This document shows, one piece after another, positions 7,618 through 26,600 of a stretch of 64,000 bases of DNA. The position numbers and the translations under genes are program-made. The stretch is from Burkholderia sp. MS389. Its GTDB lineage: Bacteria > Pseudomonadota > Gammaproteobacteria > Burkholderiales > Burkholderiaceae. The stretch covers positions 248,001-312,000 of the forward strand of contig NZ_CP045995.1 of assembly GCF_016899425.1 (NCBI RefSeq). The letters run 5' to 3'. Under the pieces are notes generated by a model, which was not told the DNA's origin, made no database searches, and was given only the letters and a program-made list of their open reading frames with translations. Positions within the stretch are counted from its first letter, which is position 1. Every line of letters starts with the position of its first letter.

Positions 7618-7632
7618 AAGGGGATATCGAAA

Positions 7633-8781: not shown

Positions 8782-9100
8782 CTCTCGGTCTGTCGATTCG
8801 GTCGCGCTGTTCGTTACCCAGTGCGACGATGGAGGCGGCGTATCGTCAAGTCGTCAGCGGACCACGCATGCCGTACGTCCTATCCATTACGCATTCCTGA
8901 TTGATTGATGCGCGATCGCCGCCGCCATTGCTTCCGGTCTGTCGGACTTGATCGCGCGAACACGCCACGTGGCGGCGAACATCTACGCGCCACGCATGCA
9001 TCAATTGGTCCGGACCATTGTGAAGCGCACGCCGCACGCACTCGGTGCGATGGCTAACCGAACAAGCGAATCGGCAGCCGCAGTCGCGTCCGGATGGGAT
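8782..9100. other. Intergenic region between glycosyltransferase genes, with two perfect dyads
   Basis: No convincing gene is present. It lies upstream of the GT4/GT4/acyltransferase unit and probably holds its promoter. It contains the 12-base palindromes CGCCACGTGGCG (8963-8974) and TGGTCCGGACCA (9006-9017). Confidence 0.5.
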
Positions 9101-10147: not shown

Positions 10148-10436
10148 GTGCGGAAGTCGGACGGGCGCGCGGACGATCGGGGTCATGATACGGATCGCGC
10201 GGCTGCGCACAGTTCGCGAGCCTACCGTTCGGGAGTGCGCGCGCGCATGGCATATCGCGTCGTCGATGCGGTACTGGAGCGCTTGGTCTGATGACGCACC
10301 GAAGCCGTTCGGAGCCCCTGATCTAATCGACGTTGGAGCATCGCCGCTTTCGTCGGCTTAGCGGACAGGCCACGCAGCCGGCCGTCAATACGTGCGGTTC
10401 GACGTGCACGAAGACTTGTCAGGGAAACGATACGAT

Positions 10437-11723: not shown

Positions 11724-11785
11724 TCGTGCGGGGCGCGGCCAACGCGCCGGCGCGATTCGCATGCACCTGTCCGACGCTCGTCCGG

Positions 11786-13363
11786 CTAACCGGGTTCTCC
11801 GGCCGAGAGCGATACGACCGGCGTGGGTTGCGCGGAAGTCGTCCTTGACGATGGCTGAACCGTCCCGACGACCGCCCGCCCATACTGATCGTCGAACCGC
11901 ACGATATCGTCCTCGCCGAGATAGTTGCCCGATTGCACCTCGATGATTTCGAGCGGAATCCGGCCGGGATTCTCGAGTCGATGCACTTCGCCGACGGCGA
12001 TATACGTCGATTCGTTCTCGCACAGCAGGAACGTCTCGGCGCCGCGCGTGACCTTCGCGGTGCCGCGCACCACGATCCAGTGCTCGGCACGGTGATAATG
12101 CATCTGCAGCGACAGCTGCCTGCCGGGTTCGACGACGATCCGCTTCACCTGGAAGCGCTCGCCGAAATCGATCGAATCGTAATGGCCCCACGGCCGCTGC
12201 ACCTTGCGGTGCTCGCTCGCCTGCGGGCGCTGGTCGGTCTTCAGGCGCGCGACGATGTTCTTCACGCGCTGCACGTCGTGCTTGTTCGCGACCAGCACCG
12301 CATCGGCCGTCTCGATCACGACGACGTCCTTCATCCCGACGCACGCGATGAGGCGGCCTTCGGAGCGCACGAGGCTGTCCTGCGTATCCTCGAACACGAT
12401 CGGCCCGCGCGCGACGTTGCCCTGATCGTCCTTCGGCATGATTTCCCAGATCGCGTCCCACGTGCCGACGTCCGACCAGCCGGCCGCGAGCGGCACCACG
12501 ATGCCTTCGATGCCGAGCTCGCCGTGTTGCGCGAGGCGCTCCATCACCGCATAGTCGATCGAATCAGACGGGCACGCGTCGAAGGCCGCCGCATCGATCC
12601 GGAAGAACGGATCGTCGGCGACGCCCGCGCGCCATGCGTTCTCGCAGGCGGCGTGGATGTCCGGCGCGAGCGCGCCGATCGCCTTCAGCCAGACCGATGC
12701 GCGCGTGACGAAGATCCCGCTGTTCCACCAGTAATCGCCCGATTGCAGATAGCGTTCGGCCAGCGCCGCATCGGGTTTTTCGACGAAACGCCCGATCGCG
12801 TAGCCGCCCTGGCTGCCGTGGCGGCCCGAGCGCGGCTCGCCCACCTGGATGTAGCCGTAGCCCGTCTCCGCGCGGCGCGGCAGCACGCCGAGCGTGACGA
12901 TCGCGCCTTCCTGCGCATAGCGCGCCGCGCGTGCGATCGCGTCCTGGAACGCGCCGACGTCGACGATCACGTGATCGGCCGGCATCACGGCGAGCACGGG
13001 GTCGTCCGCGAGCGCGCTCGCGTCGAGCGCGGCCAGCGTCAGCGCGGGCGCGGTGTTGCGCGCGGCCGGCTCCAGCAGGATGCGGGCGGGCGCCGAGCGG
13101 CCGTGCACCTGCTCGGCGCTCATGAAGCGATGCTGTTCGCCGCAGACGAGCAGCAGCGTATCGCCGAGCGACGCGTTCGCGATGCCGTTCAGGCGGCGCG
13201 CCGTCGCCGACAGCGGCGACTCGTTCGAGACCAGCTCGATCAGTTGCTTCGGATACTGCTCGCGCGACAGCGGCCACAGCCGCGTGCCGGAGCCGCCGGC
13301 GAGAATCACCGGCAGGATGCTCGGCAGATCGGGTTCGGGAACCGGGCGAAGGGTAGGGGTCAT
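11786..13363 (-). CDS. manC: Mannose-1-phosphate guanylyltransferase / mannose-6-phosphate isomerase
   Basis: This 525-residue bifunctional type II PMI/GMP enzyme supplies GDP-mannose. The N-terminal nucleotidyltransferase carries ILAGGSGTRLWPLSRE (about residues 19-34), the pyrophosphorylase signature with its activating Arg, then FVEKPD (about residue 188). The C-terminal cupin isomerase shows the metal-ligand segment RQLSLQMHYHRAEHWIVVRG (about residues 427-446). The length matches BceA/AlgA/ManC proteins. GDP-mannose is a precursor of mannose, rhamnose and fucose residues in Burkholderia EPS. Its ATG overlaps the stop of the GNAT gene by 4 bases (ATGA). It may be a second copy relative to the cepacian locus, which normally carries bceA elsewhere. 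Confidence 0.95.
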   Translation of the reverse strand: MTPTLRPVPEPDLPSILPVILAGGSGTRLWPLSREQYPKQLIELVSNESPLSATARRLNGIANASLGDTLLLVCGEQHRFMSAEQVHGRSAPARILLEPAARNTAPALTLAALDASALADDPVLAVMPADHVIVDVGAFQDAIARAARYAQEGAIVTLGVLPRRAETGYGYIQVGEPRSGRHGSQGGYAIGRFVEKPDAALAERYLQSGDYWWNSGIFVTRASVWLKAIGALAPDIHAACENAWRAGVADDPFFRIDAAAFDACPSDSIDYAVMERLAQHGELGIEGIVVPLAAGWSDVGTWDAIWEIMPKDDQGNVARGPIVFEDTQDSLVRSEGRLIACVGMKDVVVIETADAVLVANKHDVQRVKNIVARLKTDQRPQASEHRKVQRPWGHYDSIDFGERFQVKRIVVEPGRQLSLQMHYHRAEHWIVVRGTAKVTRGAETFLLCENESTYIAVGEVHRLENPGRIPLEIIEVQSGNYLGEDDIVRFDDQYGRAVVGTVQPSSRTTSAQPTPVVSLSAGEPG

Positions 13364-13938
13364 CGGTTCGCTCCGGTATCGGCGGGTAGCCGGGTGCGCG
13401 CGCGGCCGTCCGCGCGCGTGTCGTCGTTGCGGGAGACGGAAACGGCCCGCGACAGCAGGTGACGCAGCGCGCCGGCTGCACGGTCGGCCGACCGTACCAG
13501 GCCGACGAACGGCGCACCCTGTTCGAGATACGGGCCGTAGGCCTTGCGGAATCCGAACTGTTTGTAGAATGCCTGACGCGGCGCGGGGACGTGCGTGCGC
13601 ACCGCGGTGTCCGGCCATGCGGCCTGCGCGGCGGTGAGCGCGCGCCCGATCAGGCGTTCGAGCGTGTCGTCGTCGCGGCAGCTTTCGCTCGTCAGCACCT
13701 TGTCGATCACGACGTCCGGATCGATGTCGTCGCCGGGCAGGATGCGCGCGTACGCGGCGACTTCCGTCGTGTCGCCGTTGCGCACGCTCGCATAGACGTG
13801 CAGCGCGCCCGCGTCCTTGCCGTCGATGTCGAGATGCGTGTGCGCATCCTCGACCACCAGCACGGCGTTGCGCGCGCGCAGGATTGCGTAGAGATCGACG
13901 GCGCTCAGGTGTTCGAATTCACAACAATGCCATTCCAT
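13360..13938 (-). CDS. GNAT family N-acetyltransferase (ElaA-like)
   Basis: This 192-residue GCN5-type acetyltransferase has an ElaA-like core. LSAVDLYAILRARNAVLVVE is followed by AAYARILP (strand beta4), the acetyl-CoA region DTLERLIGRALTAAQAAWP, and FYKQFGFRKAYGPYLEQGAPF at the C-terminal end of the fold. A disordered Arg/Asp-rich tail of about 35 residues follows. The ATG at 13938 is chosen because GAGGA lies 7 bases upstream; a longer open frame to 14079 has no such site. The gene is coupled to manC by an ATGA overlap, which suggests a role in sugar-nucleotide or EPS metabolism, for example acetylating an amino sugar. The substrate is unknown. Confidence 0.85.
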   Translation of the reverse strand: MEWHCCEFEHLSAVDLYAILRARNAVLVVEDAHTHLDIDGKDAGALHVYASVRNGDTTEVAAYARILPGDDIDPDVVIDKVLTSESCRDDDTLERLIGRALTAAQAAWPDTAVRTHVPAPRQAFYKQFGFRKAYGPYLEQGAPFVGLVRSADRAAGALRHLLSRAVSVSRNDDTRADGRARTRLPADTGANR

Positions 13939-15136
13939 GATGCGGTCCTCGCGTGATGCCTTCGGCACGCCGCGCCGCACGGACGCGGTCGTTCCGTGCG
14001 GCGCGGCGATCTTCATCATCCGGATGCGGGGTGCGGCGGTCTGTTCGAAAGCGTACTCACGCTCCGGATTCGCATGCACGGCGCGGGATACGACGCGACG
14101 TGCGCGTCACGGGAGCGTCGCAATGTGCGATAGCACACACCGTCGGGGCCGGTGCCTTTTCATAATTGCTTCATCGTGGCGGCCTGCAATGAGGCGCGAC
14201 CGACATCGCGCGCAAAACGGGTCACCGGGACGCGGGACCGAGGATTGCGGTGGTTCGCGACCGGCCGGTCGCGCGCTTGCACCGTCGTGGTGATCGGCTG
14301 GTGCGTTTGCTTCGGGTCGTGACGTGCGCGGTGGCCGATCGCGCCGGGAGGGCCGTCATGCTGCACCGCACGGCGCGCGGGCGTGCGTCCGATGCCCGGC
14401 GCCCGGCACCCGAGCCTGTCGGCGGGGAATTCGCCGAAAAGAGGCTGCGCGGCGCGAGGCCGGTGATTACGACGTGTAACGGCCGGGCGGCCCGCGCGCC
14501 GGCGCAAGGCGATGCGGCGACCCGCCGGCGCGCGCGATTATGCGGTCCGGACGCGCGGTCCCACGCACTTTTGGGAGATTTCGGTGAAAATCGCAGGTAA
14601 TCGATCGTATCAATCTTGCGGAAAAGTAGTATTTGCCACTGATTGACGGGAATGGTCGGAGATAATCAAATCTCAGTGGTCAAAAGCGCGCAGCGCGGGG
14701 CCACGGGCAGCGTAACCGACTGATTCAGGATTATCTTTTGGTAACAAGGTCATCTCGAAACGGGGTGTAGATTCAGGTGCGGATGAAATGGGGCGGTCAA
14801 TCCGGGCGCGGTTTGGCAGCCCTCCGGTTCAGCATCGGGCGCGACTGTCGTGTACGACGCGACGCACATGCGGACGGAATGTCCGTTTGCCGGCGTGCCC
14901 CGCCTGACGGCGGGTCGCTTCAAAGCCGGAATGTCATGGCTCCCGCAGCCGCGCATTCCGTTCGAGTTCGATGACAACGAGGCCGGATGACATCCGGCTC
15001 GACCTCCGGGGGTTTTCGCCGTGTGCAGTTTCGATCTTCGCCAAGGCTGCGGAAACGCAGCGCGGAAGGGCGGCCATGCGCCGCCGGCCGCAGCGCACGC
15101 GGACGGTTCGCGGAGTGCAGAGAGTGACGGTTCGTT
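13939..15136. other. Long intergenic control region between the EPS genes and the berB-like gene
   Basis: About 1.2 kb without a convincing gene, flanked by divergent starts (GNAT/manC leftward, the sigma-54 activator rightward). The stretch 14560-14780 is markedly AT-richer than its surroundings. It holds the dyad GAGAT-AATCAA-ATCTC (14659-14674). An 18-base perfect palindrome lies at 14256-14273. I saw no clear sigma-54 or sigma-70 core promoter. Confidence 0.5.
14256..14273. promoter_or_regulatory. 18-base perfect palindrome, possible operator
   Basis: CGCGACCGGCCGGTCGCG is self-complementary over 18 bases with no spacer. It lies about 320 bases upstream of the GNAT-manC start and about 860 bases upstream of the activator gene. 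It could be a protein-binding site; in a GC-rich genome some such palindromes arise by chance. Confidence 0.3.
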
Positions 15137-16528
15137 ATGAATATGCCAATAACGCGCGATAAGAGCGCCGGCGCGGGGAGCGGTAACGGGCAGCGTCCGC
15201 TGATTTACTGGACGCAGTCGCCGTCCGTGATGCTGCGAAAGGAATTGTCGCGCCGCGACTGGAAAGTGACGGTCGTCGCGCATGCGAACGACCTGCGCGA
15301 CACGTCCGGCGAAATTACCTGCGGCATTCTCGATCTGAGCGGTGGCCATGCCGATGCGATCGGCAGCATCGCGTCGACCTGCGCGTCGATGCGCGACGTC
15401 GTCTGGGTGGCGCTCGTGGACGTCGGCCAGACGGCGTCGCCGAACGTGCGCGCGCTGTTGCGCGACTACTGCTTCGACTACGTGACGCTGCCGGCGTCGC
15501 ACCAGCGGATCGCCGATACGGTCGGCCATGCCTATGGCATGGAGTGCCTGTTCGCGCGCGATCGCGAACAGCTCGAATCGGAGGAAAAGGGCATCGTCGG
15601 CACCTGCAGCGCGATGTTGCGGCTGTTCGATACGGTGCGGCGTTTCGCGCGCACCGACGCACCGGTGTTCGTGTTCGGCGAAACGGGAACCGGCAAGGAG
15701 CTCACGGCCGTCGCGATCCACCGTCATTCGGAGCGACGCAACGGCCCGTTCGTCGCAGTCAACTGCGGCGCGATTCCGCCGCATCTGCTGCAGTCCGAGC
15801 TGTTCGGCTATGAGCGCGGCGCGTTTACCGGCGCGAACGCGCGCAAGATCGGCTACGTCGAGGCCGCGAACGGCGGCACGCTGCTGCTCGACGAAATCGG
15901 CGACCTGCCGCATGAAAGCCAGGCGAGCCTGCTGCGGTTTTTGCAGGAACGTTCGATTCATCGCCTTGGCGGCAGCGATCCGGTGCCGGTCGATGTCCGG
16001 ATCGTGTCGGCGACGCACGTCGACCTGCGCGACGCGATGGAGGAAGGGCGTTTCCGCGCCGACCTGTTCCACCGGCTGTGCGTGATGCGCATCGACCAGC
16101 CGCCGCTGCGCGCGCGCGGCAAGGACATCGAACTGCTCGCGCACCACATGCTCGAACGCTTCCGCGGCGATGCGCGCCATCGCGTGCGCGGCTTTTCGAC
16201 GGATGCGATCACGGCGCTCTACAAGCACGACTGGCCGGGCAATGTCCGCGAACTGATCAACCGCGTGCGCCGTGCGGTCGTGATGACGGAGGGGCGCCTG
16301 ATCACCGCGCAGGATCTCGAGCTCGAATACTGTCTCGATGCGGCGTCGCCGTCGGTCGCCGACATCCGCAAGTCGATCGAGCGCGAGGCGATCGAAACCG
16401 CGTTATTGCGGACGCGCGGACGCGTCGCCGCTTCGGCGCGCGAGCTCGGCGTGTCGCGCGCGACGCTGTATCGCTGGATGGAGGCGTACGGCATCGAGCG
16501 ACCGCGCGGGACGGGCTCGTCCGACTGA
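15137..16528 (+). CDS. berB: Sigma-54-dependent transcriptional activator, BerB/VpsR/FleQ-like
   Basis: This 463-residue enhancer-binding protein has an N-terminal receiver-like domain (about 20-140) without an obvious phospho-acceptor Asp context, as in FleQ and VpsR. An AAA+ domain follows with Walker A GETGTGKE (181-188), the sigma-54 contact GAFTGA (228-233) and Walker B LLLDEIG (Asp252, Glu253). It ends in a Fis-type helix-turn-helix (ARELGVSRATLYRWM, about 436-450). Published work on B. cenocepacia BerB describes a c-di-GMP-binding activator of berA needed for biofilm EPS, and gene order here fits. The FleQ-type c-di-GMP residues (LFRS ahead of the AAA+ core, and the Arg-Asn after Walker A) are not evident. 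The gene converges on the GH2 gene. Confidence 0.85.
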   Translation: MNMPITRDKSAGAGSGNGQRPLIYWTQSPSVMLRKELSRRDWKVTVVAHANDLRDTSGEITCGILDLSGGHADAIGSIASTCASMRDVVWVALVDVGQTASPNVRALLRDYCFDYVTLPASHQRIADTVGHAYGMECLFARDREQLESEEKGIVGTCSAMLRLFDTVRRFARTDAPVFVFGETGTGKELTAVAIHRHSERRNGPFVAVNCGAIPPHLLQSELFGYERGAFTGANARKIGYVEAANGGTLLLDEIGDLPHESQASLLRFLQERSIHRLGGSDPVPVDVRIVSATHVDLRDAMEEGRFRADLFHRLCVMRIDQPPLRARGKDIELLAHHMLERFRGDARHRVRGFSTDAITALYKHDWPGNVRELINRVRRAVVMTEGRLITAQDLELEYCLDAASPSVADIRKSIEREAIETALLRTRGRVAASARELGVSRATLYRWMEAYGIERPRGTGSSD

Positions 16529-16569: not shown

Positions 16570-19056
16570 TCAGCCGGCCTGCGTGGCGCGCACCGCGCGC
16601 GCGGCGTTGACGGCCCGGATTTCCACCGTGGGCGCGACGTAGTCGTCGGCCGCCGCGAGCTTCCCGTCCGTTCGCAATGGAATGAGCGCGATGCGCGCAG
16701 GCGTGCCGGGCGCGAGATGGAACCAGTCGTCGCTCGGCATGAAGCCCGGCGCGTCGATCTGCACGTGGCGGGCGACGTGTCGCGTGTCGATGTCGACGTG
16801 CCAGGTCGCGCCGGTGCGCGACACGCATGCCTCGATCCCCGGTTCGCGACGCGCCAGCACGGCCGGATGCGTGCGGGACGGAAAATGGAACGCCTGCGAC
16901 AGCAGCGTGCCGTCGTCGGCGCGTAAGGTCGCTACGACCGTATCGTGTTCGCAGGGGCCGAAGCGGTACGCGTAGGTCCAGTCGAAGAAGCGGCCGAGCA
17001 GCTCGGCCGAGCCGAGCCGTACCGTGTCGTGCGCGGCGATCCGCACCGGAGAGCCGGCCCGCGCGACCGGCGTGCGGCCGTCGCGCAGCGCGACCAGCTC
17101 GATCGCGGCCGACAGCGGCGCCGGGCGTTCGTTGACCACATGTACGTCGAGCCCGTTCAGGCCTTCGTCGACGAGCAGCACCTGGATCGGCTGCAGCACC
17201 TGACGCAGCGCATACCAAGCCGATTTCGGCCGGTGCGCGGCGTCGATCACGCCCCATCCGGCGCCCGGCATCACGTCCTGGAACTGCCACACGAGCGCGC
17301 CCGCGCAACGCGAACCGGTGCGCCGCCATTCGGAAAACGTCTCGCGCATCACGTCCGCGATCACCGCACGCGACAGCTCGAGGTAGCGCGCCGGGTCCTC
17401 GCGCCGCAGCCGGTCGGGCACGAAGTCGTACAGCGTCTGCAGATAATGGTCGCGGATATCGTCGAAATCCCACGACGTGCCAGGGTCGCGGGGCACGGCC
17501 GCCTTCCAGCGCGGTTCGTGCACGCCCGGCCAGCCGAGTTCCGCGAGCGTCGCATCGCCCGGCACGTTCGCGAACGCGAGGCATTCGCTCGCAAAGCGCA
17601 CGTCCGCGCGGCGCGCGTCGTCGAGCGGGCGCAGATACGCGCCGACGCCGTAGTAGTGCGACACGCGTTCGCGCGGCATGAACGGCAGCACGCCGCCGTC
17701 GGGCGAATCGGGCACGTACGGGACGTCGGGGCGGTGTGCGGCCGCGTGGCCGGCCAGCCGGTCGGCGGTCAGCTCGACGAAGCGCTGCTTCGGCCCGAGC
17801 CCCGACATCGCGGCCTGCTGCGCGATCTCGCTGCCGCCGCACAGCACCGCAAGCGACGGCGAAGGGCCGTGACGCGACAGGAACTGGCTCGCCTCGCGAT
17901 CGACGTTGGCCGCGAACGCGGGATCGTCGAGCGCGTAATCGAAGTTCGCGAAACCGAAGTCCTGCCAGACCAGCAGCCCGAGCCGGTCGCACCATGCGTG
18001 GAACGCGTCGGCCTCGTAGGTCATCGTGCCGCCGACGCGAATCATGTTGAAGCCGGCGTCGCACGCGAGCCCCAGCAGGCGGCCGTAGGTCGCGTCGTCC
18101 GCGTGCAGCGCGAGCGGCGCGGCGCTGCTCCAGCATGCGCCGCGCGCGAATACGGGCACGCCGTTGATGCGCAGTCCGAAACCCTTGCCGTCGGCGCCGG
18201 CGTCGACGTCGATCGTGCGAAAACCCGTCGAGCCCAGCGACCGGCGCGCATCGCCGATATGCAGGGCGATCTCGTAGAGCGCCGGTTCACCGTGCGTATG
18301 CGGCCACCAGCGGCGCACGTTCGGTATCGCGACGCTCGTGCGCAGCCGGTCGGCGCCGGCGCGTTCGAGCGTCGCGTGATGTTCGCCGCATGACAGCCGC
18401 GCCGCGAACATGTCGGGCAGCGGCGCGGCGAACGTCAGTTCCGCATCGAGCCAGCCCGTGTCGCCTTCGACGCGTGCATGCAGTTTGCAATCGGTAAGAA
18501 TGGGCCCGTCGGACGGATCGAGCACGTCGATGGGCCGCCATGGGCCGGTGGGCACATACGGCGGGAACCAGCCCGGCATATGGCCGAACAGCGACGTGCG
18601 GATCGTGCGCAGCGTGGCCGGTTCGGCCAGCCGCGTGCGCCAGCGTGCACGGCGCGTCGCGCGCGCGTCGCGCAGGTGCGGCGCGAGCGCGCGGAAACAG
18701 ACGGTCAGCCGGTGCGTGCCGTCGAGCGACACGGGCACGTCGTGCGCGACGAACATGCTGTCCGAGCAGTGGATCGGCGTGTCGTCGAGCCAGGCCTGCG
18801 CGAGCGTCGCGAGGCCGTGAAAGCGCAGGATGCGCAGCCCGCGCCCGCGCAGTTCGAGCCGATACCAGTGGTCGCGCTCGTCGAGCGACGCGGCTTCGTC
18901 GAGCCGGCCGGACAGCGCGAGCGCCTGCGCGACCGTGCCGGGCACCGGCGCCGCGATCCAGCCGTCGTGGTCGGCCGGGAGGTCGCGCGGCTCGCGCACG
19001 GCGCCCGCGGCCGTCGCCCGCATCGACCATGCGGGCAGCGTGCGCGCGCGCGTCAC
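16570..19056 (-). CDS. Glycoside hydrolase family 2 protein, beta-mannosidase-like
   Basis: This 828-residue protein has an N-terminal sugar-binding domain (LRILRFHGLATLAQAWLDD, about 60-80), an immunoglobulin-like domain and a TIM-barrel core. The core has INGVPVFARGACW and GFNMIRVGGTMTYEADAFHAW (about 305-345). Likely catalytic acids are Glu410 in LCGGSE and Glu491 in FASECLAF, matching the two GH2 glutamates in beta-mannosidases. No signal peptide is seen, so it is probably cytoplasmic. I choose a GTG start at 19056 because it overlaps the DUF1839 stop as GTGA, like the other junctions of this operon; ATG at 19023 is the alternative. A glycosidase at the end of a carrier-protein operon is unusual. 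The substrate may be an EPS fragment or glycoconjugate. Confidence 0.83.
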   Translation of the reverse strand: MTRARTLPAWSMRATAAGAVREPRDLPADHDGWIAAPVPGTVAQALALSGRLDEAASLDERDHWYRLELRGRGLRILRFHGLATLAQAWLDDTPIHCSDSMFVAHDVPVSLDGTHRLTVCFRALAPHLRDARATRRARWRTRLAEPATLRTIRTSLFGHMPGWFPPYVPTGPWRPIDVLDPSDGPILTDCKLHARVEGDTGWLDAELTFAAPLPDMFAARLSCGEHHATLERAGADRLRTSVAIPNVRRWWPHTHGEPALYEIALHIGDARRSLGSTGFRTIDVDAGADGKGFGLRINGVPVFARGACWSSAAPLALHADDATYGRLLGLACDAGFNMIRVGGTMTYEADAFHAWCDRLGLLVWQDFGFANFDYALDDPAFAANVDREASQFLSRHGPSPSLAVLCGGSEIAQQAAMSGLGPKQRFVELTADRLAGHAAAHRPDVPYVPDSPDGGVLPFMPRERVSHYYGVGAYLRPLDDARRADVRFASECLAFANVPGDATLAELGWPGVHEPRWKAAVPRDPGTSWDFDDIRDHYLQTLYDFVPDRLRREDPARYLELSRAVIADVMRETFSEWRRTGSRCAGALVWQFQDVMPGAGWGVIDAAHRPKSAWYALRQVLQPIQVLLVDEGLNGLDVHVVNERPAPLSAAIELVALRDGRTPVARAGSPVRIAAHDTVRLGSAELLGRFFDWTYAYRFGPCEHDTVVATLRADDGTLLSQAFHFPSRTHPAVLARREPGIEACVSRTGATWHVDIDTRHVARHVQIDAPGFMPSDDWFHLAPGTPARIALIPLRTDGKLAAADDYVAPTVEIRAVNAARAVRATQAG

Positions 19057-20108
19057 CGCATGGCCGGCACGGGCGCTGCGTCGGCGCGCACGGGCGTCAC
19101 GTGCCGCAGCGGCGCGCCGATCTGCCGCGCGCACGCGACGAGGTCGGCGTACGCAGCCTCGATCGCTTCGAGCGTCGCATCGCCGCGTTCTTCCTTGCCG
19201 CGTGCGCACGCGCGCGCGAGCCGAAATTCGAGCACCATCGCTTCGGACGCGATGCGATCGCACGAGGCGCGGATCTCGGCGAACGGCCCGGTGCAGCCGC
19301 TGGCGTGCAGCCAGCGCGCATAGTGGCCGAACAGTTCGAAATTCGCGCCGAGCTGCCGCACCGAATTGAACGAGTACGCATGGAAGCGTTCGAGCGGCGC
19401 TTCCGCGAGGATCTGCGCATCGGTCTGCAACTGCCGGCGGAACGCCGCGATCGGATCGACGACCGGCAGGCGCCGCAGGTGGCGCTGCAACGCGGCGAGC
19501 GAGGCTTCGCACAGCGCGCGCTCGTCGAGCGGCGCAAAGCGTCGCTTCGCGCATTCGACATACGGCGGCAGCGTCATCGGCGAACTCGCGCCGATGAGCC
19601 CGTTGTAGTCGAAATCCTCGGCAACGTAATAGCCGCTGTTGTGGAAGTAGCCGATCTGGTGCTTCTCGCGGTCGATCGCGTCGATGCCGATCGTCGTCTT
19701 CGTATGCTGCGTGCGGTAGCTGGTGCCGCGCGTATCGGGCAGGAACCACGCGTCGACCTCGACGATCATCAGGTGGCCACGCGCGACCTGCGTCTCGATG
19801 TGCTGGTCGAGCGGCTCGTAGATCGAATGCTCCTGCACGACGATCCCGTAGAGCCGCTCCAGTTCGTCGTGCGGAAACTTGAAGAACGTGAACTGGTCGC
19901 CCTCGAAATCGAGCGCGATCGTAAACGGCAGCGCTGCATACGGATTGAGGCCCCACCAGCGGAGCACCTCGAGCCACATGTCGACGTAGCAGTTGGTCTG
20001 CTTCCAGACCATCTCCTGACTGTGCAGCGGGTGCGGCCGGTAGTGGCGCGCGCGGTGGCGCACGCCCTCGAACGACGCGTCTTCGCCGTCGCGGGAAACG
20101 AACCTCAT
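19053..20108 (-). CDS. DUF1839 family protein
   Basis: This 351-residue protein is recognised as DUF1839 from its opening. After a short lead it has RPHPLHSQEMVWKQTNCYVD, then FTIALDFEGDQFTFFKFPHDELERLYGI and HSGYYV-type segments. The conserved GYFHNSGYYVAEDFDYNGL (about 180-200) suggests a catalytic or ligand pocket rich in His, Tyr and Asp. No biochemical function is established that I know of. Known context is co-occurrence with amino acid:carrier protein ligases, carrier proteins and acyl-CoA dehydrogenases in Burkholderia, Bradyrhizobium and relatives. Here it is coupled to the ligase by ATGA and to the GH2 gene by GTGA. A role in processing or transferring the carrier-bound amino acid is inferred. 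Confidence 0.82.
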   Translation of the reverse strand: MRFVSRDGEDASFEGVRHRARHYRPHPLHSQEMVWKQTNCYVDMWLEVLRWWGLNPYAALPFTIALDFEGDQFTFFKFPHDELERLYGIVVQEHSIYEPLDQHIETQVARGHLMIVEVDAWFLPDTRGTSYRTQHTKTTIGIDAIDREKHQIGYFHNSGYYVAEDFDYNGLIGASSPMTLPPYVECAKRRFAPLDERALCEASLAALQRHLRRLPVVDPIAAFRRQLQTDAQILAEAPLERFHAYSFNSVRQLGANFELFGHYARWLHASGCTGPFAEIRASCDRIASEAMVLEFRLARACARGKEERGDATLEAIEAAYADLVACARQIGAPLRHVTPVRADAAPVPAMR

Positions 20109-21079
20109 CGCGCGCCCCACAGCACGTCGCGCACGTCGCTCGGCCATGCGTCGATGTCGAAGCCGTGGTGGCGGAACAGCGCGAGCGTGAGCCGCTCGAG
20201 GCCGAAGCCGACGCAGCCCGTGTGCGCGACATCGCCGGTCGCGGTGCGGATGTCCCACAGCAGTCCGAAGTGGTCCATGTGGTAGTTGAAGCTCAGGCAC
20301 GCGGTCTGCCGGTCGTCGTGCTCGATCGGAATCAGCAGCTCGAACTTCAGGTTCTGCTCGCGCTGGCTGTCCGCGACGATCTTGCCGCCGCGCCCGAAGA
20401 ACGGGTCGTTCGCGAGATCGATCGCATTCGGCAGGCGCAGCGCGTCGATCATCCGCGTGCCGCGTTCGATCCATGTCTCGCGGAACGAGACGATCTGCTC
20501 GGGCGTGCCGATCCGCACGTACTCGCGCATCCGGAACAACTGCATGCGGGTCGGGTCGAGCGACGGTTCGTGACGGAAGCAGTACGAGAACACGTCGACG
20601 ATCCGGCCGTCGGCGGGCAGCGCGCCCGCGCGCGCGACGACGGGATACACGGGGTAGCACGCGGCCGGCGTCATCACGACGTAGGTCGGCTTCTGGTTTT
20701 CGGTCCAGTCGTCGCCGCGATCGAGGCATTGCAGCACGCGCTGATGCTGGCGTTCGTCGCCGCAGAACGCATGCACGCTGCCCGCCAGTTGCGGAAAGCT
20801 CTTCATGTATTCGCTGCGCTCGAACTCGGTGCGGCTCATCGCCGGCGGGAAGCGCAGCACTTCGGCCTGCTGGTCGGCGCCGATGCGCGTGACGAACGCG
20901 TCGAGCGCTTCGACCACGCGCTCGAATCGTTCGCTGCGGCCGAACAGGCCCTGGATGCCGGTCGAGACCAGCAGGCCCGCATCGATCAGCGCGTCGCGCA
21001 GCGGATTGACGCCCGCGCGGTCGAGCGGTGCGTTGGCGGGAACGGAGGGGGCGGTGGGCACGGCGAGGCGATCGTTCAC
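20105..21079 (-). CDS. Amino acid:[carrier protein] ligase, class II aminoacyl-tRNA synthetase homologue
   Basis: This 324-residue protein is homologous to the catalytic core of atypical seryl-tRNA synthetases and lacks a tRNA-binding arm. Motif 2 is seen as YCFRHEPSLDPTRMQLFRMR (about 167-186) and motif 3 as GCVGFGLERLTLALFRHHG (about 288-306). Cys residues in TPAACYP and GCVGFG and an intervening Glu fit the zinc site of this family. Published members activate glycine or alanine with ATP and load it onto the phosphopantetheine of a dedicated carrier protein, not onto tRNA. A GTG start at 21079 is chosen: GGAGAAA precedes it and it overlaps the upstream stop as GTGA. Its partner carrier protein is two genes upstream. 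Confidence 0.9.
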   Translation of the reverse strand: MNDRLAVPTAPSVPANAPLDRAGVNPLRDALIDAGLLVSTGIQGLFGRSERFERVVEALDAFVTRIGADQQAEVLRFPPAMSRTEFERSEYMKSFPQLAGSVHAFCGDERQHQRVLQCLDRGDDWTENQKPTYVVMTPAACYPVYPVVARAGALPADGRIVDVFSYCFRHEPSLDPTRMQLFRMREYVRIGTPEQIVSFRETWIERGTRMIDALRLPNAIDLANDPFFGRGGKIVADSQREQNLKFELLIPIEHDDRQTACLSFNYHMDHFGLLWDIRTATGDVAHTGCVGFGLERLTLALFRHHGFDIDAWPSDVRDVLWGAR

Positions 21080-22272
21080 GTATGTTTCTCCAGCGTCGCG
21101 GGACGCAGCGCGAGCAACAGGCTCGCAGTGTTGGCGGCAATGCGGTCGTTGCTGATCATCAGCGGCGCCGCGTGCAGGTCGCGAATGTGGCGGCCGATGC
21201 TGAACGGCGTGCCTTGCTTGTAGCCCGCCATCCCGCAGATCATCATCGCCTGGTGCGCGACCTCGAGCGCGGTCGCCGACACGTAGGTCTTCAGCGTATT
21301 GATCTCGGCGGCCCATGCCATGCCGGCCGACCACGAGCGGGCCGACGCGTTCGCGTGGAGGCGCAGCACGTTGTCGACGCGCGCCTGCATCGCCTGCATC
21401 AGCGCGAGCGATTCGGCGATGCGCCGCGCGGCGGGCGACGGCGCGCCATCGGTCTGGCGCGCCTGCGCGCGGAAGAACTGGTGCGCGCGATGGAACGCGT
21501 CGCCGGCCACGCCGATCCACACCGCGGCCCACAGGATGTGCGAGACCGGCACCATCGTTTCCTCGGCGATCTTCGCGAACGGCACCGGCAGGCATTGCAC
21601 GGCGGCGCCCTGCGCGTCGAGCACGAAGCCGTTGCTGCACGTGCCGCGCATGCCGAGCGTGTCCCATTCGCCGCGGCGCGTGAGCGTATAGCCGTCGCGC
21701 AGCAGCGTGACGAGCACCTGCTCGGAAGCCGGCGCATCCGCATCGCGTCGCGCGGTGGCGAGAATGCCGTCCGCGTAGTCGCCGTACGAGATCGTCGGCG
21801 CGGATTTGTGCAGCCGGAACCCGCCGCCGTCGATCTCGAGCGCGCACTGGCTCGCGCGCAGGTTGCCGCCGACGCCGTCTTCCGACGTGGCCGAGGCGAG
21901 CAGCCACTGGTGACGCACGAGCTGCTGCAGGAACAGCTTGTGCCAGCCCTGGTCGGCGGCATGGCCGACGATGCACGCCACCTGGATCTGGTGCATCGCG
22001 AACACCATCGCCGACGACGCGCACGCCTGGCCGAGGATCGAGCAGGCCGACGCGACGTCTTCCAGCGACGCGCCAGCGCCGCCGAGATGGGCCGGCACCA
22101 TCGCGCCGAGCAGCCGGCGCGCGCGCATCGCCTCGATTGCCTCGACGGGGCAGCGCGCGTCGCGATCGACCGCATCGGCATGCTGCGCGGCGATCTGCGC
22201 AACGGCATGCGCGGCCTCGTCGAGCCGATGCGAATCGCTGTCGGACGCGAGTTCGGGAAGCAGCGCGCTCAT
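21076..22272 (-). CDS. Acyl-CoA dehydrogenase-like flavoprotein
   Basis: This 398-residue protein follows the acyl-CoA dehydrogenase layout. It has an N-terminal helical domain with MVPAHLGGAGASLEDVA (about 58-74), a middle beta-domain (LASATSEDGVGGNLRA, then GEWDTLGMRGTCSNGFVL at about 205-222) and a C-terminal helical domain with AALEVAHQAMMICGMAGYKQG-like content ending in GRHIRDLHAAPLMI. The FAD-contacting region is recognisable, but a catalytic Glu was not pinned down. Its placement between a carrier protein and an amino acid:carrier protein ligase suggests it oxidises an aminoacyl-S-carrier, as flavoproteins do for prolyl carriers in pyrrole formation. That reaction is inference. Both flanking junctions are 4-base overlaps. 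Confidence 0.88.
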   Translation of the reverse strand: MSALLPELASDSDSHRLDEAAHAVAQIAAQHADAVDRDARCPVEAIEAMRARRLLGAMVPAHLGGAGASLEDVASACSILGQACASSAMVFAMHQIQVACIVGHAADQGWHKLFLQQLVRHQWLLASATSEDGVGGNLRASQCALEIDGGGFRLHKSAPTISYGDYADGILATARRDADAPASEQVLVTLLRDGYTLTRRGEWDTLGMRGTCSNGFVLDAQGAAVQCLPVPFAKIAEETMVPVSHILWAAVWIGVAGDAFHRAHQFFRAQARQTDGAPSPAARRIAESLALMQAMQARVDNVLRLHANASARSWSAGMAWAAEINTLKTYVSATALEVAHQAMMICGMAGYKQGTPFSIGRHIRDLHAAPLMISNDRIAANTASLLLALRPATLEKHT

Positions 22273-22520
22273 GCGGAGTGCTCGGTGCGTTGCAGCGTGG
22301 CGATCGTGTCTGCGAGCGCGTCGATGCTGCGGAACAGGTTGCGGTTCAGCATCTCGTCGGGAATCTCGATGTTGAACTGCTTTTCGATCGCGAGCATCAG
22401 CTGGATCGTATCGAGCGAGGAGAGGCCCGCTTCGTAGAGGTCGTCCCCGTCGCGGATCGAGTCGATCGCGGCTTCGAGGTGGGCGACGTGCTTCAGGATG
22501 GTTCTGATTTCGTTTTTCAC
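22269..22520 (-). CDS. Acyl carrier protein
   Basis: This 83-residue carrier protein is the first gene of the five-gene operon. The phosphopantetheine site is Ser35 in EAGLSSLDTIQLML; Ser34 replaces the usual Asp of the DSL motif. The helices are acidic, as expected, and the C-terminus continues NIEIPDEML, typical of the family. I choose the GTG at 22520 because GGAG lies 8 bases upstream and it gives the normal carrier length. An ATG at 22580 would add 20 residues of basic, non-family sequence and has poor ribosome-binding spacing. The protein should carry the amino acid loaded by the synthetase-like ligase. Its stop overlaps the dehydrogenase start as ATGA. Confidence 0.9.
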   Translation of the reverse strand: MKNEIRTILKHVAHLEAAIDSIRDGDDLYEAGLSSLDTIQLMLAIEKQFNIEIPDEMLNRNLFRSIDALADTIATLQRTEHSA

Positions 22521-22700
22521 GTGCTGCTCCGGCGTGCGTGGTGTCGTCCGCTCGGGCAGACGCGCGATAAGCGCTGACATCCCCCCGGCAGTCCGGCATC
22601 AGTAGACCATCGGCAGCCCCGGCGTTCTGTTCGCCACCCTACAAACGGCTGACCCGGCACGCGGGCGGCGCCGAAGCGCCGCCCCGACCCGGCGCGCCGA

Positions 22701-23483
22701 TCACGCGCGCGACGCGGCCGGCACGCCGGAGTCGGCCGACAGGATGCGCTTCATCTCGTCGCGCACGATCGCGCGGCAGCCGCACGACATTTTTTCGAGG
22801 CCGTCGAGGTCCGCGAGCTCGATCGAGCTGCGGTATTGCCGGATCAGGCCGAGCTTCTGGATTTCGCCGGCGGCGTCCGTGACCGTTTCGCGTCGTACGC
22901 CGAGCATTTGCGCGAGCATGCTGTGCGTCACCTGGATCTCGATGCTGCGCGTGCGATCGAACGCGAGCAGGAACCATCTGCATAACTGATGTTTGAGCAC
23001 GTGATGACGGCTGCAGAACGTGATCTGCGCGACCTGCGCCATCAGCAGCCGCACGCAGACGAACACGAGATGGCGGATCACCGGCGACGCCTCGAACGCG
23101 GTCGCGAAGACGCGCCGGTCGAGCCGGTAGACGAAGCCGTCGCGGCACGCGACCGCGCGGCAGGGCATCCGGCCGCTGCCGCCGATCACGTCGTCGCAGA
23201 CCACGCTTTCGCTGCCGATCTCCGCGACTTCCAGCGTCATGCCGCCGGACGACACGTACTGCAGCGAAATCGCGGTCGTGACCGGCAGGTAGACGGCGGC
23301 GAGCATTTCGCCGGGTTCGCACAGCACTTGCCCGGATTTCAGGTGAACGAGTTGCAGGTGGGGCGTCAGCGTGGCGAGTTCGTCGCGGTCGATGGCCGCG
23401 AGAAACCGGTTGGCGTCGAAGCTGTGGGAAAGCTCGATCATGCCGTTCGCATAAGCGACGGCGTCGGTGGCCTGATGAGTCAC
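22701..23483 (-). CDS. CRP/FNR family transcriptional regulator (BerA paralogue)
   Basis: This 260-residue regulator has an N-terminal cyclic-nucleotide-binding-type beta-barrel (about 15-140; LKSGQVLCEPGEMLAAVYLP and VAEIGSESVV). A dimerisation helix follows, then a Crp-type winged helix (THSMLAQMLGVRRETVTDAA, about 195-214). No Fe-S cysteine cluster of FNR type is evident at the N-terminus. A GTG start at 23483 has GAGG upstream; ATG at 23441 is the alternative. It is a clear paralogue of the regulator encoded divergently at 24400, sharing the FCSRHHVLKHQLCRWFLLAFDR-like core and equal length. Ligand and targets are unknown. It stands divergent to berA and 180 bases from the carrier-protein operon, which it may control. 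Confidence 0.88.
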   Translation of the reverse strand: MTHQATDAVAYANGMIELSHSFDANRFLAAIDRDELATLTPHLQLVHLKSGQVLCEPGEMLAAVYLPVTTAISLQYVSSGGMTLEVAEIGSESVVCDDVIGGSGRMPCRAVACRDGFVYRLDRRVFATAFEASPVIRHLVFVCVRLLMAQVAQITFCSRHHVLKHQLCRWFLLAFDRTRSIEIQVTHSMLAQMLGVRRETVTDAAGEIQKLGLIRQYRSSIELADLDGLEKMSCGCRAIVRDEMKRILSADSGVPAASRA

Positions 23484-24399
23484 GGCGCATCCTCGCAGGT
23501 GGGCGGTCGCGCGTCGTTGCGGCGAATCCCGGAATGGAAATCGCACGATCGTGCGGACTTTGTTGATCAAAAAAACGGAATGACGATACTCGCGAAAAAG
23601 GCTAGCACGCAATTGAATTCGGCCAATTCGACCTTTTGCCATTTCACAAAGTTTGACGATTTCGACTGCACGCAAACGTTATGTCGATTTAAGAATTCCT
23701 TTCTCCGGAATTAATCATCCGGAAATGGAATCGTGAACCTGCTTGTCATTCTATGTCGACCGGAATCAATCGGACAACGTGACGAATCGTACAGAAAAAG
23801 TGGCGGGAAGACATTGAACATTATTTGACAAATAAATGGGGTCATCCAGATTTTGTATTTATATCAACGGCTTGCAGGCGATATGTGCGGTGGTGGACAG
23901 AGTGGGGAATTAGTGTGCCGATTCAAATTTGAGACAGTTTGAAACGAGCGTGTGCGGTGCGGCGACGCCGGGAAATGCTGCGCCGCACATCACGGAAACA
24001 ATTGAAAATCGGCTGTAAGTATTTGAACGATAAGCATCGCGACCGCAACGCCGGCGTCCCGAGCCGGCGCGCGGGAATTGATCAGTCGAATGCGTGCTGT
24101 GTCCGTCGTATGGGGGAGTGTCCGGAAATGAGACGTTTTTTCGGTTTTGGGGTCGGTTATTCAGGGGCTCTAAATCGGATGTGATTCATATATTAAGGAC
24201 GGGCGGCTATTGGCACGTAAATCGCTTATTCGGGCTGGCGTGTCGAAACGGGGCAGTCGACTCAATTCGGCGTTGACAAGCCGATGATCAGTCGGATTCA
24301 GGGTTGTGGGCCGCAACCGCTGTCAACGTCCGGGCGCGCATCGCGATAACGAGTTCCGTGCCTGCCGCTGGCGGCGCGGACGATAAAAGGGATACAGAC
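23484..24399. other. AT-rich divergent control region between two CRP/FNR genes
   Basis: About 900 bases without a convincing gene, much lower in GC than its surroundings. It holds a strong sigma-54 promoter (24211-24226). It also has a repeated 10-mer TCCGGAAATG at 23718-23727 and 24121-24130, and a related TCCGGAA at 23704-23710. A 10-base palindrome TCAAATTTGA lies at 23923-23932. Short frames here lack coding character. Confidence 0.6.
24211..24226 (+). promoter_or_regulatory. Sigma-54 (RpoN) -24/-12 promoter of the berA operon
   Basis: TGGCACGTAAATCGCT matches the consensus TGGCACG-N4-TTGCW at every fixed position except one. The invariant GG (24212-24213) and GC (24224-24225) are 10 bases apart, as required. 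It points at the CRP/FNR gene starting at 24400, leaving a leader of about 165 bases. A TCCGGAAATG element lies about 80-90 bases upstream, a normal enhancer distance. Published RpoN- and BerB-dependence of berA fits this site. Confidence 0.82.
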
Positions 24400-25182
24400 A
24401 TGCTTCATCTTCACTCGAGCTATTCGGCGAACGCCATTCTTGCTGCCCTCCCGGAGGACAGCATCCGCGCCATCGCCCCGCATCTCGAACTGGTCAGGAT
24501 CAAGGCCGGGATGCTCGACCGGGTCGGCGAGCCGATGCGTCATCTGCATTTTCCGACGACGGCGATGATGTCGGTGCAGCACCTGATGGAGGACGGTGCG
24601 ATGGTCGAGGTGGCGGTGGTCGGCCGCGAGGGTGTGGTCGGGCTGGGGACGCTGGTCGGCGGTATCGCCGCGTCGAGCCGGGTCGAAGTGCGCATCGGCG
24701 GAATGGCCTATCGCGTGCCGAGTTGCGTGATGCGCGCCGAATTCGAGCGGTCGGCGCAGACCTACCGGCTGTTGCTCAACATCTGCCAGGCGACGATGGC
24801 GCAGATCTCGCGCAGCGCGCTGTGCAACCGGCATCACTCGGTCAGCGAGCAGCTCAGCCGCTGGCTGCTGCTCGCGCACGACCGGATCGACGGCGACGAG
24901 CTGGCCGTCACGCAGCAGACGATCGCGAACATGCTCGGCGTGCGGCGCGAAGGCGTGACGGAAGCGGCCGGGAACCTGCAGGAAGCCGGGCTGATCCGAC
25001 AACGCCGCGGCCGCATCACGGTGCTCGACCGCGACGGCCTCGAACATCACGCGTGCGAATGCTACAGCCTGATTCGCGCCGACTATCGGCGGTTGCTCGG
25101 CACGCGCGAGCATGCGAGGCAGGCGACGATTCGCCCGCGCATGCCGGACGCGTACCGCGGATTCCCCGCGCATGGTGCGTGA
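24400..25182 (+). CDS. berA: CRP/FNR family c-di-GMP-responsive regulator, BerA-like
   Basis: This 260-residue CRP/FNR protein has a cyclic-nucleotide-binding barrel (about 12-135; VGEPMRHLHFPTTAMMSVQHL and VVGREGVVGLGTL), a long central helix and a Crp winged helix (TQQTIANMLGVRREGVTEAA, about 190-209). The ATG at 24400 follows AAAAGGGA. I assign berA for three reasons: family, position seven genes after the berB-like gene as in B. cenocepacia (BCAM1342 and BCAM1349 from memory), and the sigma-54 promoter upstream, since berA is reported to be RpoN/BerB-dependent. BerA activates the Bep EPS genes in response to c-di-GMP. The sugar transferase gene starts 2 bases after its stop, so the two form one operon. 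Confidence 0.85.
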   Translation: MLHLHSSYSANAILAALPEDSIRAIAPHLELVRIKAGMLDRVGEPMRHLHFPTTAMMSVQHLMEDGAMVEVAVVGREGVVGLGTLVGGIAASSRVEVRIGGMAYRVPSCVMRAEFERSAQTYRLLLNICQATMAQISRSALCNRHHSVSEQLSRWLLLAHDRIDGDELAVTQQTIANMLGVRREGVTEAAGNLQEAGLIRQRRGRITVLDRDGLEHHACECYSLIRADYRRLLGTREHARQATIRPRMPDAYRGFPAHGA

Positions 25183-25184
25183 CG

Positions 25185-26600
25185 ATGCAGTCGATGTCCG
25201 GTGGAACGAATGCGATCCGGCGTGCCGCGATCGCGGCGGCCGACGTCGTGCTCGTGCTGGCCGGGGCGCTCGCCGCGCAGGCGGCGTCGGGGCTCGGTTG
25301 GCATGCGCTGTCCGACGCGCAGCGCGGCGCGATCGCACTGCTGTGCGTGCTGACGGTGGCGCTGCTGCCGCGCTACCTGCGCACCGTGCGCGGCGGCGTG
25401 GCGGTGCGGGGCGGTGCGCACGTGTTGACACACACGCTGGTGGCCGTGGTGTGCGCGAGCGTGCTGACGGTTGCCGGCACGATGTGGATCATGAATCGCG
25501 GCGGCACCGTGACGACCCGCTGGATCGCGCGCACGGTGCTGGCCGGCGACGCGGCGCTGCTGCTCGGCCGCGCGGCGCTGCTGGCGTTCGCGCTGACGCG
25601 TGGCGACCCGCGTGCGCGGCAGCGCCGCGTAGCCATCGTCGGCGCAACGGCTTACGGGCGCGTGGCGATCGAGCGGATGCAGCTCGCGCCGAACGGCCCG
25701 TTCGCGGCCGCGTGCGTGTTCGACGACGATGCGCCGGCCGCCGCGGGCGGCATCGGCGGCGTACCGGTGATCGACGACTGGAACGCGTTGCGCGAGCGGA
25801 TTCGCGGCGGCGACATCGACGAGGTATGGCTCACGCTGCCGATGTCGCACGAGTGGCGGATCCAGCGGATCGTGCGCGAGTTGCGCGACGAGTTCGTCGA
25901 GTTGCGGCTGTTGCCCGACGTGCGGCAGATGGCGGTCGTCGATCGTTCCGCGACCGACGTGCTCGGCATGCCGGCGATCAATCTCGCGACCACGCCGCGC
26001 TCCGCGCCTGAGCTGTGGGCCAAGTTCGCGTTCGACCGGCTGTTCGCGTTCGGCGTGCTGATTCCGTTGCTGCCGCTGCTGACGATGCTCGCGATCGCGG
26101 TCAAGCTGTCGTCGCCGGGGCCCGTGCTGTTCAGGCAGCGCCGCAAGGGCGTCGACGGCCGCGAGTTCGACATCCTGAAGTTCCGGACGATGCGCGTGCA
26201 TCGCGTGCAGCCGGGCGTCGTGCGGCAGGCGTCGCGCAACGATTCGCGCATCACGCGCGTCGGCGCGTTCCTGCGGCGCACGTCGCTCGACGAGTTGCCG
26301 CAGTTCTTCAACGTGCTGTTCGGGCAGATGTCGGTGGTCGGCCCGCGTCCGCACGCGATCGAACACGACGACTTGTATCGGCAACTGATCGACTGTTACA
26401 TGTACCGCTACCGCGTACGGCCCGGCATCACCGGATGGGCGCAGGTGAACGGCTATCGCGGTGAAACGCGCAAGGTCGAGGCGATGGCGGCGCGCGTGAA
26501 GTTCGATCTGTTCTACATGCAGAACTGGAGCTTCTGGTTCGACATCAAGATCATCCTGCTGACGGTGGTGCGCGGCTTCATCGGGCGCAACGCGTTCTGA
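25185..26600 (+). CDS. Undecaprenyl-phosphate sugar phosphotransferase (WcaJ/BceB-type)
   Basis: This 471-residue polyprenyl-phosphate hexose-1-phosphate transferase starts EPS repeat-unit assembly on undecaprenyl phosphate. It has about four N-terminal transmembrane helices (residues 12-135), a Rossmann-like central domain (RVAIVGATAYGRVAIERM), a re-entrant membrane helix near 295-320 and the catalytic domain. The latter carries RQRRKGVDGREFDILKFRTM, the Asp-Glu pair in SLDELPQFFNVLFGQMSVVG, then GPRPH and RPGITGWAQVNGYRGET. The ATG at 25185 comes 2 bases after the berA stop, so initiation of EPS synthesis and the c-di-GMP regulator share a sigma-54-driven transcript. The gene is about 21 kb from the wza/wzc/wzy genes it presumably serves. 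Confidence 0.93.
   Translation: MQSMSGGTNAIRRAAIAAADVVLVLAGALAAQAASGLGWHALSDAQRGAIALLCVLTVALLPRYLRTVRGGVAVRGGAHVLTHTLVAVVCASVLTVAGTMWIMNRGGTVTTRWIARTVLAGDAALLLGRAALLAFALTRGDPRARQRRVAIVGATAYGRVAIERMQLAPNGPFAAACVFDDDAPAAAGGIGGVPVIDDWNALRERIRGGDIDEVWLTLPMSHEWRIQRIVRELRDEFVELRLLPDVRQMAVVDRSATDVLGMPAINLATTPRSAPELWAKFAFDRLFAFGVLIPLLPLLTMLAIAVKLSSPGPVLFRQRRKGVDGREFDILKFRTMRVHRVQPGVVRQASRNDSRITRVGAFLRRTSLDELPQFFNVLFGQMSVVGPRPHAIEHDDLYRQLIDCYMYRYRVRPGITGWAQVNGYRGETRKVEAMAARVKFDLFYMQNWSFWFDIKIILLTVVRGFIGRNAF

Follow-up and report, generated by a model that had tools for sequence, protein, structure and literature searches.

A 64,000-nt stretch of the genome of Burkholderia sp. MS389 (contig NZ_CP045995.1, positions 248,001 to 312,000; here called the window) contains five minus-strand genes, at positions 16570–22520, that probably specify a cytosolic aminoacyl relay handing an amino acid to a sugar or a glycan precursor (estimated probability for this general mechanism, about 0.6). 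The genes code for a carrier protein, a flavoprotein with the acyl-CoA dehydrogenase (ACAD) fold, an amino acid:[carrier protein] ligase, a DUF1839 protein and a beta-mannosidase-like glycosidase of glycoside hydrolase family 2 (GH2). The gene set, and much the same hypothesis, have been known since 2010. Added here are a structural case for the DUF1839 protein, the lack of the usual dehydrogenase glutamate in the flavoprotein, a linkage to genes of the BerA type and a likely sixth gene. The DUF1839 structure, together with the link to BerA-type and exopolysaccharide (EPS) genes in Burkholderiaceae, provides a concrete reaction and polymer to consider; if the proposal is true, a relative of tRNA synthetases helps to build the biofilm matrix.

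The five-gene operon and its products

The transfer step is suggested by the DUF1839 protein (19053–20108, minus strand; 351 residues), which scored 427.5 bits with the Pfam DUF1839 model and is 93–95% identical to the copies of B. seminalis, B. cenocepacia, B. anthina and others. Its structure model (mean predicted local distance difference test score, pLDDT, 85.1; predicted template modelling score, pTM, 0.86) shows a papain-like domain, bearing Cys40, His135, Thr138/139 and His156, and a helical C-terminal part. Comparison of the model with the PDB gave 14 matches at E ≤ 0.001, to AziU3/U2 (three), CtaG (eight) and CcbD (three). These matches covered 321–371 alignment columns, the whole length of DUF1839; the next other match had an E-value of 0.027. 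A PDB sequence search with the same protein returned nothing significant (best E 0.024). The whole-length match, new here, supports the proposal of an initial annotation of the window that DUF1839 transfers a carrier-bound group, and the protein is regarded as a putative carrier-dependent acyltransferase. Assignment to the BtrH family was considered and rejected, Pfam reporting DUF1839 alone.

The part of PMC10318531 that was available places DUF1839 in the papain-like superfamily and proposes a Cys-Thr/Ser-His site; from this source and from its position, Cys40 is the putative catalytic cysteine. Among 135 distinct DUF1839 proteins (139 with repeats; L175 and L126 are identical, as are L185 and L145, and L194 and L202 were taken as repeats of L093 and L096), His156 and Asp167 were present in all 135, His135 in 134 and Cys40 in 114. 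The order of the site may be Cys-His-acid or the one proposed in that source. The 21 proteins lacking Cys40 comprise one stand-alone protein (L147) and 20 ligase-linked copies (L141, L145, L160, L161, L174–L177, L179–L184, L186–L190 and L193, with L126 and L185 as repeats). The latter have Arg or Gln in its place, and 19 of the 20 have a Cys at position 139. They form one group of loci, from Cupriavidus and the genera g224 and g245, and each of the genomes encodes another DUF1839 protein in which Cys40 is present, most of these genomes having been picked for carrying two copies. Single ligase-linked DUF1839 proteins of the same group retain Cys40 (L092, L093, L099, L195 and L198). The L191 protein has both cysteines (40 and 139) and a replaced His135. 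Stand-alone DUF1839 genes with no neighbouring ligase were seen at L096, L127, L137 and L147, some with a carrier gene, and adjoin CRP and mostly EPS genes; such genes may be fed by another acyl donor. For the stand-alone copy at L196, the pattern match used to score Cys40 gave no call.

The ligase (20105–21079, minus strand; 324 residues from a GTG start) scored 559 bits with NF005479, the amino acid–[acyl carrier protein (ACP)] ligase model (cut-off 357), and 27.4 bits with Pfam tRNA-synt_2b, slightly under the cut-off of 29.3. Its length, and a match to the archaeal-type seryl-tRNA synthetase (SerRS) model confined to model positions 307–503 of 518, indicate a class II synthetase core without the tRNA-binding arm. 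The alignment with the Bll0957 ligase runs across residues 10–320, and the three zinc motifs (PAACYPVYP, FRMREYV and AHTGCV) are identical; the Cys/Glu/Cys ligands of Bll0957 are presumably C131, E176 and C279. The carrier protein (22269–22520, minus strand; 83 residues) matched the PP-binding (41.3 bits; cut-off 20.8) and NF005480 ACP (144.5 bits; cut-off 72) models. Its closest solved chains are 4h2w_C and Atu2571 (2jq4), and scores of 65–66 bits with the Atu2571 type, against 31 bits with the ‘carrier protein 1’ type, place it nearer the former. The phosphopantetheine Ser, the third position of the ‘LSSLDT’ motif, was kept in 70 of the 70 clustered proteins. Ligases of this kind reportedly use glycine or alanine, as work by Mocibob is said to have found. 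The same two substrates are given in the available part of a 2022 review, which calls the biological role of loading amino acids onto these carriers unknown. By homology, the window's ligase would act on glycine or alanine, both small amino acids. At three other loci (L164:197–1520, L199 and L200) a carrier and a ligase, or a ligase alone, were present, and the stretch examined there had no match to DUF1839.

The flavoprotein (21076–22272, minus strand; 398 residues) exceeded the Pfam cut-offs for Acyl-CoA_dh_N (41.1 bits) and Acyl-CoA_dh_1 (36.1 bits), the middle domain falling below its own (19.4 against 33.3 bits). Glutamates E376 of medium-chain acyl-CoA dehydrogenase (MCAD) and E254 of isovaleryl-CoA dehydrogenase (IVD) are taken here to be the catalytic sites of such enzymes; the flavoprotein has a Glu at neither position. 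With the positions assigned through an alignment to a dehydrogenase and by hand, the MCAD site was Ile in 74 and Val in one of 75 proteins, the window's included, and Glu in none; at the IVD site, the eight motifs seen most often, which account for 72 of the 75, have Ser or Thr. Since the usual dehydrogenase glutamate is absent, the oxidation attributed to this protein may mean mono-oxygenation, which appears more likely than dehydrogenation. Its top solved relatives were the N-oxygenases DnmZ, KijD3 and ORF36, closely trailed by dehydrogenases: by profile, DnmZ scored 82.9 bits, a dehydrogenase was second with 77.0 and KijD3 followed with 74.0, while in the structure search KijD3 and short-chain acyl-CoA dehydrogenase tied (both E 1.9e-17).

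The GH2 protein (16570–19056, minus strand; 828 residues from a GTG start) was above the Pfam cut-off for the N-terminal domain (39.7 bits), the remaining GH2 and Ig models being under theirs. It resembles beta-mannosidases, and hydrolysis of beta-mannosides is predicted. The candidate catalytic pair, Glu410 and Glu491 (assigned by motif), was kept in 72 of 72 proteins. A signal-like N-terminus was found in none of the 72 by a simple hydropathy test; the relay reactions therefore seem to be cytosolic.

Open-frame analysis showed every one of the four junctions to be a 4-base ATGA or GTGA overlap. All four overlaps were present in 16 of the 18 scorable Burkholderia loci and three in the other two (two of the 20 loci are incomplete). 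Among the 50 scorable loci of L088–L147, the carrier–flavoprotein overlap occurred in 50, the ligase–DUF1839 overlap in 42, the DUF1839–GH2 overlap in 11 and the flavoprotein–ligase overlap in four. Full coupling is therefore a Burkholderia feature, while the gene order is general. A second, longer frame for the carrier protein, with an ATG start, extends to 22580; the GTG start at 22520 is the better one because frame-breaking indels separate 18 aligned Burkholderia sequences upstream of it. The initial annotation was thus right on the gene families, the four overlaps, the armless synthetase core and the carrier start.

Distribution and exopolysaccharide linkage

All five genes were found in 71 of the nearest 80 loci, some of the misses being contig ends. 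These 80 were the nearest of at least 571 confirmed DUF1839 relatives in a scan of named genomes, and close kin are therefore over-represented. Genera were grouped by identity, which placed L117, L120, L124 and L147 (titled Burkholderia sp.) with Paraburkholderia, and L115 and L100 (Burkholderia sp. S171) with Caballeronia. Matches to the NF005479 ligase model exceeded the cut-off in 57 of the 65 genus genomes and 133 of the 299 family genomes; in an even draw from the class, four of 274 were over the cut-off and seven had E ≤ 0.001. In a draw of 398 genomes from the phylum, 16 had a DUF1839 match above the cut-off. Scored at E ≤ 0.001 in the 299 family genomes, ligase and DUF1839 occurred together in 129, ligase only in seven, DUF1839 only in 12 and neither in 151. 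Further loci were taken from the window's family (cassette or DUF1839; L159–L161 and L167), from the ligase hits of the class draw (L162–L166) and from other classes of the phylum (eleven DUF1839 loci, L148–L158, alphaproteobacterial by look).

An EPS marker (a wcaJ, wzc, wza or manC homolog no more than ∼10 kb from the cassette) accompanied 70 of the 80 loci and 63 of the 71 complete ones. A CRP gene lay near the cassette in 69 of the 80. When gene families were clustered over 81 loci, the GH2 gene was almost always present (72 of 81). Apart from the genes of the cassette and those for CRP, WcaJ and GNAT, the next widest family, a glycosyltransferase by eye, covered 36. The whole genome of the window (7.75 Mb, three contigs) holds four Bac_transf and four Poly_export genes; the genomes reached via L107, L109 and L120 hold six to eight and three to six, respectively, two of the six Bac_transf genes of one genome being abutting halves.

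The EPS neighbourhood that had been annotated around the operon is real: genes of the bep type fill the left part of the window (281–14079). They include a Wza-like exporter (281–1588; Pfam was run on 488–1585), Wzc (1648–3927), an acyltransferase (5349–6401), ManC (11786–13363), an ElaA-like GNAT protein (13360–14079, below the model cut-off) and glycosyltransferase-like genes named by eye. The GNAT gene overlaps manC by four bases, and a homolog lies near the cassette in 57 of the 80 loci. Convergent with the operon is berB (15137–16528, plus strand), coding for a sigma-54 enhancer-binding protein; BerB was identified from the published gene order, its match to PrsR (TIGR02915) being below the cut-off. 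On the other side of the operon, just upstream of it, lies a gene of the CRP/FNR family (22701–23483, minus strand), followed by a second one (24400–25182, plus strand), the two products being 39% identical, and by a gene for a WcaJ-type initiating sugar-phosphate transferase (Bac_transf; 25179–26600, plus strand; family search).

The initial annotation had named the 22701–23483 gene berA, which is very probably wrong. The available part of PMC5552954 prints a sigma-54 site and two primers for the berA promoter; that site is identical to positions 24207–24230 (plus strand), and the primers map, with one mismatch each, to 24114–24133 and 24312–24329. Since site and primers lie directly upstream of it, the gene at 24400–25182 is, by its position, berA, and that at 22701–23483 codes for a BerA paralog. 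The published numbering (berB, BCAM1342; berA, BCAM1349) leaves six genes between the two, as in the window, and so fits this placement, single BCAM assignments being inferred. No literature was found on the locus tags BCAM1343–1348 and I35_5194–5199.

Between the paralog and the carrier gene, a non-coding block (22578–22646, minus strand) is strongly conserved in the 18 aligned Burkholderia sequences, with variable flanks, and is a candidate promoter or leader. That it might be a shared regulon box was rejected: the window's genome contains no further exact copy, and places with three mismatches numbered five, against three for a reversed control. A sigma-54 promoter before the carrier gene was rejected too, a crude scan having given nothing convincing (no sigma-54-like site within five mismatches upstream of the window's carrier gene). 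BerA, its paralog or read-through may drive the operon, to which the genes for BerA and BerB are adjacent.

Across loci L088–L147, 48 of the 49 clustered CRP genes resemble berA more closely than they do the paralog. The exception, L089, itself also has a berA-type gene. A berB match was linked in 19 of the 80 loci, i.e. in 18 of the 20 Burkholderia loci (L068–L087) and at L089. The latter belongs to Paraburkholderia ginsengisoli NBRC 100965, the genome that also supplied L103 of the 80; of its two cassettes, one lies beside berB and the paralog and the other in the usual Paraburkholderia context. A CRP gene was found at none of the eleven other-class loci, five of which had genes labelled glycosyltransferase- or Wzc-like, with weak scores. 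The annotated association with EPS genes and c-di-GMP regulators thus stands for EPS and CRP genes in the 80 loci and fails for berB in most of them and for CRP in other classes; neither of the two regulators, BerA and BerB, is universal. Outside Burkholderiaceae the link to EPS genes is weaker. Four of the eleven loci (L149:4163–6990, L150, L154 and L156) have all or part of a set of EF-P, EpmA and lysine-2,3-aminomutase-like genes flanking the cassette; the models were run on L149 only, and the other calls were made by eye.

A double alpha/beta hydrolase is likely to be a sixth member of the set, which the initial annotation had given as five genes. Its gene (C2:245817–247643, equal to L203:2818–4644) lies upstream of the Wza gene, ∼360 bases outside the window on its left. 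Proteins of this type, ∼560–600 residues long (longer in L149) and made of two hydrolase halves, are encoded near the cassette in 18 of the 80 loci. All seven scanned matched hydrolase 2 (TIGR03101) with the N-terminal half and hydrolase 1 (TIGR03100) with the C-terminal half, in every case below the curated cut-offs. Each of the nine cassette-bearing genomes searched contained a long frame that TIGR03100 matches twice, below its cut-off. As TIGR03100 also matches eight of 14 control genomes, only matches that are split within a single frame carry information. Identification of the sixth gene as an exosortase hydrolase was rejected in view of these scores and because no exosortase was found in the window's genome; one of the 11 genomes tested has one.

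Proposed reaction and alternatives

In the proposed relay, the ligase would activate glycine or alanine and load it onto the carrier protein, where the flavoprotein would oxidise it, probably by mono-oxygenation. DUF1839 would then accept the acyl group at Cys40 and transfer it to a sugar, at an amino or a hydroxyl group, in the manner of CcbD, whose acceptor is an amino sugar. GH2 and the EPS-linked double hydrolase may act on glycosides or esters by trimming, proofreading or recycling them. The relay of Burkholderia would serve the Bep locus or a glycan produced alongside. Each of these details, taken alone, is much less probable than the general relay.

Several observations weigh against this proposal. 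The DUF1839 fold match reaches a TM-score of just 0.52–0.56, with a root-mean-square deviation of 5.4–7.9 Å and 10–16% identity, and Pfam BtrH_N gave no match to DUF1839 up to E 10, the filters dropping most weak matches. Two stand-alone DUF1839 proteins, at L147 and (by pattern match) L201, lack Cys40 and have no Cys40-positive partner in the stretch read. Solved structures do not separate N-oxygenase from dehydrogenase for the flavoprotein. No EPS marker accompanies eight of the 71 complete loci (three in Azospirillum, three in Paraburkholderia, one in Mycetohabitans and one in Reyranellaceae), and to this is added the absence of CRP genes from the other-class loci. The 80 loci are related by descent, so that their counts are non-independent and no probability is attached to the linkage. 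Finally, the published Bep repeat is Gal-Glc-Gal-Man, for which the available part of that work mentions neither amino acids nor amino sugars. With Bep as the acceptor, an ester would therefore be likelier than an amide. According to the same partial source, the material for the structure was extracted with 0.3 M NaOH, which could have removed an ester. A fuller scenario, in which a base-labile oxygenated (e.g. N-hydroxy) glycine or alanine decorates a c-di-GMP-controlled EPS and is lost in NaOH, and in which exosortase-type loci use parallel acyl-carrier chemistry, is offered as a doubtful conjecture.

If the acceptor is instead another glycan or a small glycoside, the relay would make a small aminoacyl glycoside, a signal or secondary metabolite, rather than decorate EPS, and EPS loci would be shared through use of the product in biofilms. 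This is unlikely, although it would suit the antibiotic pathways of CcbD and CtaG (the latter presumed), which are among the closest structural relatives of DUF1839, as well as the complete loci without an EPS marker within 10 kb and the glycosidase without an export signal (simple hydropathy). It sits poorly with the EPS markers at 70 of the 80 loci and with the clustering, where no further gene family is as constant as the cassette, CRP, WcaJ and GNAT. The redox step also has an alternative: the flavoprotein might be a true acyl-carrier dehydrogenase, giving an alpha,beta-unsaturated or imino aminoacyl group (dehydroalanyl or iminoacetyl) that DUF1839 would then move. The ACAD fold, which the prolyl-carrier dehydrogenase 4irn shares, and the scores of acyl-CoA dehydrogenases, close to those of N-oxygenases by profile and structure, speak for it; the lack of Glu at the MCAD position in all 75 proteins, the Ser or Thr at the IVD position in 72, and the fact that glycine offers no alpha,beta bond make it quite improbable.

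Transfer of the aminoacyl group to a protein or peptide rather than a sugar is considered very unlikely. DUF1839 does have a cysteine-protease fold, and EF-P, EpmA and lysine-aminomutase-like flanks occur in four of the eleven other-class loci, but its nearest structures are carrier-linked transferases (a presumed role for AziU3/U2 and CtaG) and not peptidases, and the glycosidase partners the cassette in 72 of 81 loci. Hardly any weight is given to the view that the cassette is an unrelated metabolic unit residing in EPS islands by chance: other-class loci adjoin diverse genes, as it would predict, but the linkage to EPS and regulator genes recurs in Burkholderia, Paraburkholderia, Caballeronia and Cupriavidus, where the surroundings are rearranged. 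The cytosolic relay to a sugar or glycan precursor is thus preferred.

Comparison with known systems

The conserved open reading frame (ORF) of the Agrobacterium Atu2574 neighbourhood presumably codes for a DUF1839 protein, as judged from gene order. That neighbourhood was named by Iyer & Aravind (2010) in a note in proof (PMC2922099), the available part of which lists a SerRS-like ligase, an ACP, a redox enzyme, a conserved ORF, a glycosidase and surface-glycan genes. It predicts that the ORF acts as a ligase, joining an amino acid to a sugar of the cell surface through an amide, and that the redox step is probably a mono-oxygenation; it gives the ORF no fold and mentions no double hydrolase. 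The window agrees with it in gene set and differs in adjoining bep and BerA/BerB genes. The annotated statement that the later steps are undescribed therefore holds for experiments, a literature search conducted mostly outside subscription journals having found no experimental role for the gene set, and fails for the set and a similar hypothesis, published in 2010.

The Bll0957 ligases (3mey and 4h2w) resemble that of the window in core sequence, zinc motifs and a nearby carrier gene, although the window's carrier is of the Atu2571 rather than the ‘carrier protein 1’ type. The nitrososynthases DnmZ, KijD3 and ORF36, which act on TDP-amino sugars, rank at or near the top among the solved relatives of the flavoprotein, with dehydrogenases scoring nearly as high; KijD3 has been solved with a ligand of the TDP-amino-sugar type. 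The exosortase A EPS loci (TIGR03100, TIGR03101 and PrsR, TIGR02915) offer another parallel: the sixth gene matches both hydrolase models, and PrsR is the best model for BerB. However, all these matches are under the curated cut-offs and no exosortase was found in the genome. The available part of the first exosortase paper (PMC1569441) does not mention the hydrolases.

With the transferases CcbD/LmbD, CtaG, AziU3/U2 and BtrH, DUF1839 shares the whole-length fold, the active-site Cys and a carrier in the operon. It differs from them in its 10–16% identity, in the lack of a BtrH_N match and in the order of the His and the third residue, which may be swapped. CtaG and AziU3/U2 are assumed here to act as carrier-linked transferases. 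For CcbD, the available part of PMC12945683 describes a Cys ping-pong reaction in which carrier-bound proline is moved to the Cys and from there to the amino group of a thiooctose.

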